The position numbers and the translations under genes were made by a program. Source: a bacterium (GTDB taxonomy: Bacteria > SM23-31 > JAUVVT01). Taken from it: a stretch of DNA of 22,088 nucleotides. The stretch spans positions 1 to 22,088 of the forward strand of contig JAUWXV010000035.1 of assembly GCA_030616165.1 (NCBI GenBank), written 5' to 3'. Under the pieces are notes generated by a model. The model did not search any database, was not told where the DNA came from, and was given only the letters and a program-made list of their open reading frames with translations. This document shows positions 13,153 through 17,218 of the stretch, piece by piece (position 1 is the first letter of the stretch; each line of letters opens with the position of its first letter).

Positions 13153-13899
13153 ATGAAGGGTGTAATACTTGCAGGCGGACTTGGGAAAAGGCTTTATCCA
13201 CTTACAAAAATTACAAATAAACACCTTCTGCCTGTATATGACAAGCCGATGATTTATTATCCCCTTGAGTGTTTGATAAAGGCTGGTATTGAGGAGATTA
13301 TTATTGTAACTGGCGGTAATAACGCCGGTGATTTTTTGCGGCTGCTCGGAAATGGTAAGGAATTTGGATTAAAACACCTTCACTATACCTATCAGGAGGG
13401 AGAGGGAGGAATAGCTGCTGCTCTTGCTCTTGCGGAAGACTTTGCAGATAACGAGTGTATATGTGTTGTGCTGGGAGATAATATTATTGAAAAAAATATA
13501 AAAAAAGACATTGAAGATTATTCGAAAAAATCCAGAGGTGCAAGGATATTTCTTAAAGAGGTTCCTGATAGGGAGCGATTCGGTGTACCCGAAATCGTGA
13601 ATGGGAAAATTATTAAGATAGAAGAAAAACCAAAAAATCCTAAATCGAAATATGCAGTAACAGGAATATATATTTATGACTCGAATGTATTTGATATTAT
13701 TAGAACTCTTGTTCCTTCACAGAGAAATGAACTCGAAATAACGGATGTTAATAACAGATATGTAGAATTGGGGGAGATGACATATTCTATACTTGATGGC
13801 TGGTGGGCTGATGCAGGAACCCCGGAATCCCTTTTTAAAGCAAGCAGACTTGTCAGTGAAACCGGGGCAAATAACCTACTTCTTTTGAAAAAGAAGTAG
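13153..13899 (+). CDS. rmlA: Glucose-1-phosphate thymidylyltransferase (short RmlA type)
   Basis: A 248-residue nucleotidyltransferase joining dTTP and glucose-1-phosphate to give dTDP-glucose. The N-terminal signature is GVILAGGLGKRLYPLT, with Lys where Thr is commoner. KHLLPVYDKPMIYYPLE, YQEGEGGIAAAL, VVLGDNI and IEEKP follow in the family order, and WADAGTPESL lies near the end. The protein is of the short form that lacks the extra C-terminal allosteric part of enterobacterial RmlA. The last codons (reading LLLLKKK) and the TAG stop lie inside a perfect hairpin of a dispersed repeat, so the native C terminus may have been replaced. AGGA lies seven bases before the ATG. rmlB follows 123 bp downstream. 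The two genes supply dTDP-4-keto-6-deoxyglucose to the polysaccharide pathway. Confidence 0.92.
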   Translation: MKGVILAGGLGKRLYPLTKITNKHLLPVYDKPMIYYPLECLIKAGIEEIIIVTGGNNAGDFLRLLGNGKEFGLKHLHYTYQEGEGGIAAALALAEDFADNECICVVLGDNIIEKNIKKDIEDYSKKSRGARIFLKEVPDRERFGVPEIVNGKIIKIEEKPKNPKSKYAVTGIYIYDSNVFDIIRTLVPSQRNELEITDVNNRYVELGEMTYSILDGWWADAGTPESLFKASRLVSETGANNLLLLKKK

Positions 13900-13901
13900 G
13901 T
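13874..13901 (-). repeat. Hairpin repeat, copy 1 (inverted copy)
   Basis: CCTACTTCTTTT and its exact complement AAAAGAAGTAGG are separated by two bases. One further A-T pair extends each arm to 13 bp. Read on the - strand the loop is TC and the lead is AAGTTTTCTTA, matching the design of the other two copies. It covers the last codons and stop of rmlA. Confidence 0.75.
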
Positions 13902-13916
13902 AAGAAAACTTATTGA

Positions 13917-13954
13917 TATTCCTTATCCCCCGAGTACTCGGGGGATAAGGAATA
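13917..13954. repeat. Perfect 38-bp palindrome
   Basis: The half-site TATTCCTTATCCCCCGAGT is followed immediately by its exact complement, centred at 13935/13936 with no unpaired loop base. Its five-C/five-G core is GC-rich against very AT-rich surroundings. It lies exactly between the two oppositely oriented hairpin copies at 13874-13901 and 13959-13997. Confidence 0.85.
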
Positions 13955-13958
13955 AGTC

Positions 13959-13997
13959 TAAAGTTTCTTTGCTTACTTTCTTTTCAAAGAAAGTAAG
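13959..13997 (+). repeat. Hairpin repeat, copy 2
   Basis: The lead TAAAGTTTCTTTG is followed by arms CTTACTTTCTTT and AAAGAAAGTAAG with loop TC. The arms are perfectly complementary over 12 bp. The same lead and layout recur at 16032-16071 with only one change in the lead. A T-rich stretch follows, so it might also weakly stop transcription. Confidence 0.8.
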
Positions 13998-14022: not shown

Positions 14023-15039
14023 ATGAATATTTTAGTTACAGGTGGAGCGGGATTTATTGGTTCAAATTTTATTCGATATTTACTTGATTTATCTGATGAG
14101 TATTTTATTATTAATTTGGATAAATTGACTTATTCTGGAAATCTTGAGAACTTGAAAGATGTTAAAAAAGGGTTTTCTGAGAGATATAAATTTTTGAAGG
14201 GTGATATATGCGATAGAGAAAAGGTAAGAGATATAATCAAAAATTATCAGATAGAAGCAATAATAAACTTTGCAGCAGAGACGCATGTTGACAGAAGTAT
14301 AAAGGAGGGTTCGAAACTTTTTATCAGGACAAATATTCTGGGAACTGAGACATTACTGAGCGAAGGATTATCTGGAAATATAAGATTATATATTCAGATT
14401 TCTACCGATGAGGTATACGGGTCTCTGGGTGAAGAAGGGATATTTACCGAGAAAAGCGTTCTTTCTCCTACAAATCCGTATTCGGCATCAAAGGCTAGCG
14501 CTGACCTTCTTGCTTTATCATATTTCAGGACTTTTGGATTTCCTGTTATTATTGTAAGGTCGTGTAATAATTTTGGTCCTTATCGATTTCCCGAAAAATT
14601 GATTCCCCTTCTTATTACCAATGCTATTGAAGATAAATATCTTCCCATATATGGTGAAGGCAGGAATGTTCGGGAATGGATATTTGTTGAAGATTTTTGC
14701 AGAGCCGTGTATATGGTAATGAACAAAAGCAAACTTGGTGAAGTTTATAATATTAGCACTGGGTTCCAGAAAAGGAATATTGAAGTAGCAGAGTTGATAT
14801 TAAAAAAATTTAATAAGGGGAAAGACCTGATAAGATTTGTCGAGGATAGAAAAGGACACGACTGGAGATATTCGATGGATTTTTCTAAGATTAAAAATGA
14901 GATTGGATGGAATCCAGGCATAGATTTTGAAAGGGGACTGGATGATACTATTAGATGGTATTCCGAAAACAGCAGATGGGTAAAAAATGTTAAATCTGGT
15001 GAATATCTTAAATATTATGAGAAGTATTACGGGCTTTAA
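14023..15039 (+). CDS. rmlB: dTDP-glucose 4,6-dehydratase
   Basis: A 338-residue extended SDR converting dTDP-glucose to dTDP-4-keto-6-deoxyglucose. It begins with the NAD motif TGGAGFIGSNF, then FAAETHVDRSI, the catalytic STDEVYG stretch and the YSASK active site (Tyr153, Lys157). SCNNFGPYRFPEKLIPL and DRKGHDWRYS are the family's conserved substrate-binding segments. Length and motif order match RmlB/RfbB. AAAGG lies six bases before the ATG. rmlA is immediately upstream, with three hairpins in the gap. No RmlC epimerase or RmlD reductase follows, so either they lie elsewhere or the keto sugar goes to another fate, for instance amination. Confidence 0.94.
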   Translation: MNILVTGGAGFIGSNFIRYLLDLSDEYFIINLDKLTYSGNLENLKDVKKGFSERYKFLKGDICDREKVRDIIKNYQIEAIINFAAETHVDRSIKEGSKLFIRTNILGTETLLSEGLSGNIRLYIQISTDEVYGSLGEEGIFTEKSVLSPTNPYSASKASADLLALSYFRTFGFPVIIVRSCNNFGPYRFPEKLIPLLITNAIEDKYLPIYGEGRNVREWIFVEDFCRAVYMVMNKSKLGEVYNISTGFQKRNIEVAELILKKFNKGKDLIRFVEDRKGHDWRYSMDFSKIKNEIGWNPGIDFERGLDDTIRWYSENSRWVKNVKSGEYLKYYEKYYGL

Positions 15040-16029: not shown

Positions 16030-17218
16030 TTTAAAGTTTTTTTGCGCAACTTTTTTTTCAAAAAAAGTTGCAGGAATAAGTAAAAAAATCAAAATATTTA
16101 AATTGAAAGATATAGATAAAAATAAAATCGAAAGGATAATGATTCTTGGAGCTGTGGGAATTGGGAATCTACTTTTGTTTTCACCTGCTTTAAAGGCAGT
16201 TAGGAGAGAATTTCCAAACGCAAGAATAACTTTGATTGTATTGGGGGATTCATTTAAATATTTGTATGAGGATTCGGATGAGGTCGATGAAATAATGGTT
16301 GTTGAGCAAAAGAAGTATCCACAAATTACTGATAAAATTAGATTAATATTGCAACTTCGAAAAAAGAAGTTTAATCTTTCGATTACTACTTTTCCTTCAA
16401 ATAGATTTGAATATAATCTTCTTCCTTTTTTATCCGGTGCGAAATACAGGATTGCTCATAAATATCCGCTTAAATACTTGCGGTCTCTTTCATTCCTGCA
16501 AAATTCTAAGGTAGAGGTTGATATGAATGTTCATGACCTTGAGCAAAATCTGAATCTTTTAAAGCCTCTGGATATTGATTCGGTTATTGAAAAAAAGATA
16601 TTTTTTAAAATTTCTAATGATAACAGGAAAAAAGCTTTAGAGGTTTTGCATGAAAGAGGATTAAATGATAATAAGACAATATTAGGATTTCACCCCGGTT
16701 CAAGTATAGAGAGAGGGATGTATTTTAAGAGGTGGGAAGCGGAGAAGTTTGCAGAATTGGGAAAAAGACTGATCGAAAAATTTGGGCTGAACATTTTAAT
16801 TTTTGGAGGTCAGGAAGAAAATCCATTAAAGGAGGAGATACAAAGTCTTATTGGGGATGGTTCTTTTGTAGTAAGTGAACTCTCTTTGAAGGATACCGCT
16901 GCTCTAATCGAAAAATGCAGGTTATTTGTCAGCAATGATTCGGGATTAATGCATATAGCAGTTGCAGTGGATGTTAAGACTATTGCCATTTTTGGACCTT
17001 CAGACCCATTGCGGACCGCACCTTATGGAAATGAGCATGTAATTATCAGGAAAAAAGTTGAATGTTCTCCCTGCTGGTCTATAAAAAATCTGGGTGTGGG
17101 GAAGGTTAAATGTAAATACAATCAAAATATTTGTATGGAAAAAATTGAAGTTGATGAAGTTTTTGACGCTGTCTGTAAGTTTTTAGGAAATAAAGATTAT
17201 AACAAAACTGAATTGTAA
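16013..17218 (+). CDS. Family 9 glycosyltransferase (second copy, start uncertain)
   Basis: A GT-B glycosyltransferase of up to 401 residues, clearly GT9: ILGAVGIGNLLLFSPALKAV at the N terminus, GFHPGSS, and VSNDSGLMHIAVAVDVKTIA with FGPSDPLRTAP in the donor domain. The Asp expected after the glycine of the first motif is Asn here (codon 16166-16168). Three in-frame starts exist: TTG 16013 (overlapping the previous gene, purine-rich AGAG before it), TTG 16103 and ATG 16139. The family usually begins 4-20 residues before the first strand, so 16103 fits best. If 16013 is used, the hairpin repeat is translated as an N-terminal extension (LKFFCATFFSKKVAG). It is not an obvious duplicate of the preceding gene, as the two differ in most positions. 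Confidence 0.82.
   Translation: MNYSFSLKFFCATFFSKKVAGISKKIKIFKLKDIDKNKIERIMILGAVGIGNLLLFSPALKAVRREFPNARITLIVLGDSFKYLYEDSDEVDEIMVVEQKKYPQITDKIRLILQLRKKKFNLSITTFPSNRFEYNLLPFLSGAKYRIAHKYPLKYLRSLSFLQNSKVEVDMNVHDLEQNLNLLKPLDIDSVIEKKIFFKISNDNRKKALEVLHERGLNDNKTILGFHPGSSIERGMYFKRWEAEKFAELGKRLIEKFGLNILIFGGQEENPLKEEIQSLIGDGSFVVSELSLKDTAALIEKCRLFVSNDSGLMHIAVAVDVKTIAIFGPSDPLRTAPYGNEHVIIRKKVECSPCWSIKNLGVGKVKCKYNQNICMEKIEVDEVFDAVCKFLGNKDYNKTEL
16032..16071 (+). repeat. Hairpin repeat, copy 3
   Basis: The lead TAAAGTTTTTTTG and one C are followed by arms GCAACTTTTTTT and AAAAAAAGTTGC with loop TC. It differs from copy 2 at four stem positions, each matched by the complementary change in the opposite arm. 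It starts two bases after the stop of the first GT9 gene and lies within the longest open frame of the second. Confidence 0.8.

Follow-up and report, generated by a model that had tools for sequence, protein, structure and literature searches.

The window analysed here, the whole stretch of 22,088 nucleotides, carries an rmlA-like and an rmlB-like gene in the same orientation, and the gap between them holds a composite element made of two leader-plus-hairpin ends around a perfect palindrome. A single further leader and hairpin, of another type, lies in the same window. The features are as follows.

13153-13899, plus strand: rmlA-like glucose-1-phosphate thymidylyltransferase open reading frame (ORF)
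13874-13901, minus strand: left-end hairpin, type B, with AAAAGAAG as the minus-strand purine tract of its stem
13902-13908, minus strand: left leader and predicted third strand TTTTCTT, in parallel match to the hairpin's AAAAGAA
13917-13954, no strand: central perfect 38-bp palindrome, loopless, sequence TATTCCTTATCCCCCGAGTACTCGGGGGATAAGGAATA
13960-13971, plus strand: right leader AAAG-TTTCTTT-G, with TTTCTTT (13964-13970) as the predicted third strand
13972-13997, plus strand: right-end hairpin, type A, CTTACTTTCTTT TC AAAGAAAGTAAG
14023-15039, plus strand: rmlB-like dTDP-glucose 4,6-dehydratase ORF, starting 25 nt past the right hairpin
16037-16071, plus strand: second, single leader and hairpin, type D, TTTTTTT-GC-GCAACTTTTTTTTCAAAAAAAGTTGC

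The left hairpin reads ACCTACTTCTTTTGAAAAAGAAGTAGGT (13874-13901) and the right hairpin CTTACTTTCTTTTCAAAGAAAGTAAG (13972-13997), and the left leader (13902-13908) has an A in place of the usual terminal G. Together, positions 13874-13997 make up the window's longest inverted repeat, an imperfect one of 56+56 with 73% complementarity. Folded as DNA it gave z = -11.9 for the plus strand and -12.3 for the minus strand, and none of 200 shuffles was as stable. The rmlA ORF enters the left hairpin and terminates inside it at the TAG of 13897-13899, giving a C-terminus ...GANN-LLLLKKK whose final codons (LLLLKKK) are supplied by the element; 3hl3, the closest solved relative of the product, ends at about the same point. 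A search of the window against Rfam gave no match above the gathering score. The left hairpin, the 38-bp palindrome and the right hairpin that a preliminary description had placed in this gap are all present at 13874-13997. Its outline of the unit as hairpins plus palindrome left out the leaders, which belong to the unit too, and its view of the two hairpins as copies of one sequence does not hold, since the right stem (CTTACTTTCTTT) and the left stem (CCTACTTCTTTT) are of different types.

Copies of the family were collected through sequence searches and genome stretches. The host genome (G000) is a fragmented draft of 3.74 Mb in 343 contigs, in which a 161-base query of the element gave 81 blast places and the 20-mer core TTTCTTTGCTTACTTTCTTT, with at most 3 mismatches, was found at 40+40 places against 5+3 for a reversed control, so the expectation of many dispersed copies was borne out, with dozens of loci that are unrelated to one another. 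With the control subtracted, about 70 A-type copies are present; copies within one genome are related, many being paralogues, and such counts therefore represent non-independent events. G001, the only same-family genome (assembly 70% complete), has about 27 copies, and the full exact pattern occurred in the host and G001 only (2 of 386 sampled relatives). Beyond the host family, a 24-mer was found mainly in Oscillospiraceae (Gemmiger, Pseudoflavonifractor) and also in a Dehalococcoidia MAG and others, with 1-16 copies per genome. A viral origin was rejected, as 44 of the 45 viral contigs with the 20-mer lacked the purine arm and were mostly low-complexity T/C runs, and plasmid carriage was rejected as well, the matches being partial and weak only. 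The exact motif strings were absent from the literature searched.

Each end consists of a leader, namely AAG (often AAAG), a T/C tract of 6-8 nt and a G, followed by a hairpin with a 4-5-bp foot, a pyrimidine 5' arm, a loop of 2-3 nt and a purine 3' arm. Hairpin types distinguished by their stems are A (AAAGAAAG), A' (AAAAGAAAG), B (AAAAGAAG), C (AAAAAAGG), D (AAAAAAAG) and E (AAAAAAG), and there is also a AAGAAAAG type. Every one of the host's 12 close pairs was inward-facing and heterotypic (chance of no same-class pair, 7e-4). The paired inverted layout was thus found in other copies, as predicted, and the composite-repeat reading stands, with the addition of a pairing rule that had been overlooked: each of the 12 pairs combines different types. 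In several copies (L004, C302:10434-10524; L025, C55:1896; L015, C297:8088; L172, 3625-3743) the leader is interrupted, at roughly one and the same point, by a second small palindrome (CCGCCATAGGCGG / CCGCCTAAGGCGG), a nested repeat that favours one target.

The family varies in position between related genomes. We compared orthologous gaps in syntenic stretches of G000 and G001. At gap 3a (C259:19405-19503 in the host), the host sequence ...ATG GAA GGA TAA is immediately followed by hairpin, leader and palindrome, and G001 has a 42-nt gap without the element behind ...ATG GAA AGT TGA, with the TGA at the same codon as the host TAA. Gap 3b is the reverse, with the element in G001 (L184, 1721-1746) and not in the host; at gap 3c it is found only in the host, and at gap 1c both genomes carry elements that differ in types and palindromes. 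As read from the two assemblies, these gaps show that the element was gained or lost at orthologous places, and the expected orthologous loci lacking it do exist. The rmlB genes of three class-level relatives have no such element upstream, and no rmlB match was found in G001 (70% complete). The sequence is thus neither unique nor fixed at all rmlA-rmlB loci, and a fixed regulatory region of this gene pair was rejected on the basis of the relatives' rmlB loci. The G000 and G001 flanks are too diverged to define a target-site duplication; no parent transposon was seen, and no autonomous partner was found.

Paired inverted hairpins with a spacer, their dispersal and the Y1_Tnp genes of the host all suit a REPIN moved by a RAYT/Y1 transposase, whose hairpins would be REPs cut and pasted as single-stranded DNA, and three hairpin copies lie near RAYTs, two at 1.0-1.3 kb from L063 and one at 1.2 kb from L066. 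The Y1 gene sought in the host is represented by seven Y1_Tnp matches, several with GC-rich palindromes of their own beside or inside them, but none has the element hairpin at both ends, and across 10 genomes the hairpin stands at the ends of none of 29 Y1 loci. Moreover, 4 of 13 other hairpin-bearing genomes gave no Y1_Tnp match, including G001 (70% complete, about 27 copies). Known RAYT substrates have a GTAG foot (PMC8266576, PMC3733652); here GTAG is not found at the foot, 5' of the stem, where the leader reads AAG-Y tract-G, and GTA(A/G)G occurs inside the stem only. Mobilisation by a REP-associated Y1 transposase, which the preliminary description had proposed, is accordingly not borne out, and we regard it as quite improbable. 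Identity with a known REPIN was rejected on the same two grounds, a missing hairpin-flanked cognate RAYT (29 loci) and a missing GTAG foot, and the element, which looks and probably works like a REPIN, is therefore not filed as one. The near-identical RAYT genes L062 (1381-1878) and L063 (1354-1881) have REP-like GTAGGGGCGGATTTATCCGCC / GGCGGGTAAACCCGCCCCTACG inside their own coding sequence, and the Y1 loci L061, L064 and L066 have the palindromes CCGAGCCTGGGGACAGGCTCGG (6 copies), CGCCCTGGGTTTCATTACCCAGGGCG (2) and GGGGC..GCCCC nearby.

The central palindrome is a recurrent part of the unit. A palindrome paired at 12 or more of 15 positions lies a few nucleotides upstream of AAG in 57 of 87 leader-plus-hairpins and is perfect (15/15) in 39 of 87, and paired positions never exceeded 12/15 in shuffles of the upstream regions. 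Its arms comprise 49 distinct sequences with inner positions 92-100% paired; the perfect 38-bp palindrome had been described correctly, while its variation in sequence between copies that stay palindromic had been overlooked. The mismatches were A-C (13) and G-T (8) without a G-U excess, so the constraint looks DNA-level. Central palindromes of the G001 loci and L173 are often of another theme (TAAATTTCCCCTCG...) than those of the host, and the palindrome type hence appears lineage-specific, with the hairpin ends common to both genomes.

A relation that had been missed when the hairpin structure was recognised links each leader to its own stem. With the purine arm taken in the direction from loop to foot, the leader T/C tract is its parallel (mirror) complement and not its antiparallel one, as in the leader/arm pairs TTTCTTT/AAAGAAA, TTTTCTT/AAAAGAA, TTCTTTT/AAGAAAA, TTCTTTTT/AAGAAAAA and TTTCTTC/AAAGAAG, after which the G faces the last purine. 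This match spans about ten stem types and several phyla, and contigs of other phyla (Oscillospiraceae and others) show the same relation with new asymmetric types. In a first count of 321 purine-armed hairpins, 84 had an 8/8 parallel match and 2 an 8/8 Watson-Crick match, with controls of 0 for the 3' flank and 0 for leaders with shuffled letters. In a second count, units were selected only by the generic leader, without reference to the match, and agreement was scored where the leader C positions equalled the purine-arm G positions in parallel register. Agreement was found in 50 of 55 host and G001 units (permuted leads: mean 20, maximum 29 in 2000 permutations) and in 27 of 28 units from other phyla (mean 15, maximum 20). 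The commonest tract, TTTCTTT, is mirror-symmetric and alone cannot separate the two registers; the asymmetric tracts were parallel rather than antiparallel by 13:0 in the host and G001 and by 6:0 in other phyla, ruling out Watson-Crick pairing between a leader and the stem that follows it.

Copying errors yield direct or inverted repeats and not mirror repeats, which makes a third strand in the major groove the natural explanation. From the sequence pattern we strongly infer that the leader is the third strand of a predicted intrastrand Y.R-Y triple helix on the purine arm, corresponding to class IV of the published scheme, in which Hoogsteen Y, Y and R blocks follow from 5' to 3' (PMC4666352), with the complement as a class II-like R motif. 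As the leader changes in step with the stem in the way a triplex would require, this predicted three-stranded DNA (or RNA) shape was probably kept by evolution. Because the 3' end of the leader runs straight into the stem foot, leaving no nucleotides over, the lowest predicted triple, that of the terminal G, may not form, and this G may act as a linker instead. The same relation bears on the idea that template-switch correction in replication, not selection, keeps the palindrome perfect and that the whole is a passive replication-derived repeat. Such correction would suit the many different yet perfect palindromes and mismatches unbiased toward G-U, but it cannot make a mirror relation between leader and arm and leaves the heterotypic ends unexplained, and we consider it highly improbable.

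Many hairpins also lie at gene ends. With ORFs called by a simple script, no nucleotide separated the hairpin foot from a stop codon (0 nt) in 10 of 43 host cases, 4 of 9 G001 cases and 7 of 19 cases from other genomes; where both neighbours were usable, 9 of 29 host cases (2.1 expected) and 7 of 13 others (0.66 expected) were at 0 nt. Eleven further host genes run 1-26 nt into the hairpin. A stop codon provided by the element was ruled out as the cause of this spike at one locus, where G001 has its stop at the same codon without the element. According to work cited in PMC12306157, ribosomes stall at E. coli REPs that lie no more than 15 nt from a stop codon, so by analogy the element may affect the gene upstream of it. 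Both the 0-nt position, seen in several phyla, and these stalling REPs would fit an RNA-level 3'-UTR element, in which the hairpin, which might include a U.A-U triple helix, would end or shield transcripts or delay the release of ribosomes, and would owe its spread to this usefulness. A terminator-like match in the window copy points the same way, but it is a single weak one (3 G-C pairs) near the shuffle mean of 0.4 +/- 0.9, the 3' flank varies between copies, and BoxC reportedly had no terminator activity (PMC4666352). Furthermore, the strand transcribed by the stop-abutting gene is the one whose third strand is purine, and RNA does not form triplexes of the purine motif (PMC4666352); the missing G-U excess in the palindrome also argues against this role, which we judge unlikely.

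We lean towards a scattered non-autonomous repeat with predicted triplex-forming heterotypic ends around a palindrome, mostly selfish and spread by single-strand mobilisation or template switching. Each end comprises a leader, a pyrimidine arm and a purine arm, and when single-stranded, presumably during replication, the leader would lie parallel on the purine arm; changes in the stem would be met by changes in the leader because the fold is under selection. The paired folded ends and the palindrome might then be used by a single-strand-acting enzyme, or by replication template switching, to copy or move the element, and the place immediately after a stop codon would be where insertions are best tolerated. 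We take the element to be probably selfish for the most part, with a possible but secondary effect on mRNA 3' ends. Several points weigh against this mobile repeat: its triple helix is a prediction whose lowest triple may not form, presence and absence could reflect loss as well as gain, neither autonomous partner nor target-site duplication was found, and the placement at stop codons points to a role in the transcript, for which purely selfish DNA offers no explanation.

The closest known systems are the PIT elements, BoxC and TM_ECO, intrastrand-triplex motifs with inverted A+B pairs that fold in vitro and for which a mover is not known (Holder et al. 2015, PMC4666352, citing earlier PIT papers from Maher's group). 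They share with the present family the three-block single-strand triplex layout, dispersed intergenic copies that are patchy among relatives, and inverted close pairs that always join type A and type B. The class layout of three blocks in one strand with T.A-T / C.G-C (or R-motif) triplets, stems of 6-15 nt and loops of 1-6 nt agrees with our units, which have a 7-9-nt parallel match, a loop of 2-3 nt and a spacer of about 5 nt (G plus CTTA). The AT-rich element differs in sequence from the BoxC/TM_ECO consensus CCCTCNCCCN3-6GGGNGAGGGN3GGGNGAGGG. TM_ECO is a symmetric, near-invariant class II motif rich in GC (CCCTCNCCC..GGGNGAGGG..GGGNGAGGG) with no set distance to genes, whereas the present family is AT-rich, best read as class IV, comes in natural types that co-vary in several phyla, has 4-5 bp of additional stem beneath the predicted triplex and a central variable palindrome, and often abuts stop codons. 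With REPIN/BIME repeats (GTAG REPs with RAYT; PMC3116915, PMC3733652, PMC8266576), for which structured spacers and heterodimers are known, it shares two inverted short hairpins with a spacer in many dispersed copies, often behind genes, but it has neither the GTAG foot nor a found cognate RAYT and adds the leader-stem parallel co-variation and a variable perfect palindrome as spacer. CGTC REPs (PMC3733652) are likewise dispersed hairpin repeats without a dedicated transposase; they have 8-9 bp stems, 4-5-nt loops and no described third-strand block, and the element lacks the CGTC tag. Like MITEs it is short and non-coding, with two inverted ends and presence or absence at orthologous sites, but its ends are themselves hairpins, unlike each other, and no target duplication or parent transposon was found. 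Taken together, the element is, by its sequence, an AT-rich, palindrome-centred variant of intrastrand-triplex repeats with a REPIN-like layout.

Intrastrand triplexes in cells have been an open question since PIT/BoxC, for which folding was demonstrated in vitro and in vivo footprinting was negative, and near-invariant symmetric sequences offered no co-variation test. About ten natural stem types with a third strand changing in step provide a compensatory-change test for triple helices, as for RNA helices. A bolder form of the mobile-repeat reading, which we hold only tentatively, is that such repeats are recognised through three-stranded DNA hairpin ends, with the triplex formed and selected in cells and with heterotypic ends and palindrome as the substrate of single-strand mobilisation directed at the 3' ends of genes. 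If true, the leader-stem mirror co-variation would be natural cross-phylum evidence that an intrastrand triplex arises and is under selection in living cells, and the element would predict a machine or process handling such ends, which would also fit the A+B pairing of E. coli BoxC.

In two genomes outside the host family the setting differs. A ruminant-gut Clostridia MAG (G075) carries the motif in short direct arrays with a spacing of about 90 bp (C10:1920-2118 and C23:14589-14803), and in Clostridiales NK3B98 (L081, 184-221) a hairpin lies directly 5' of an apparent 5S rRNA gene with no stop codon ahead.
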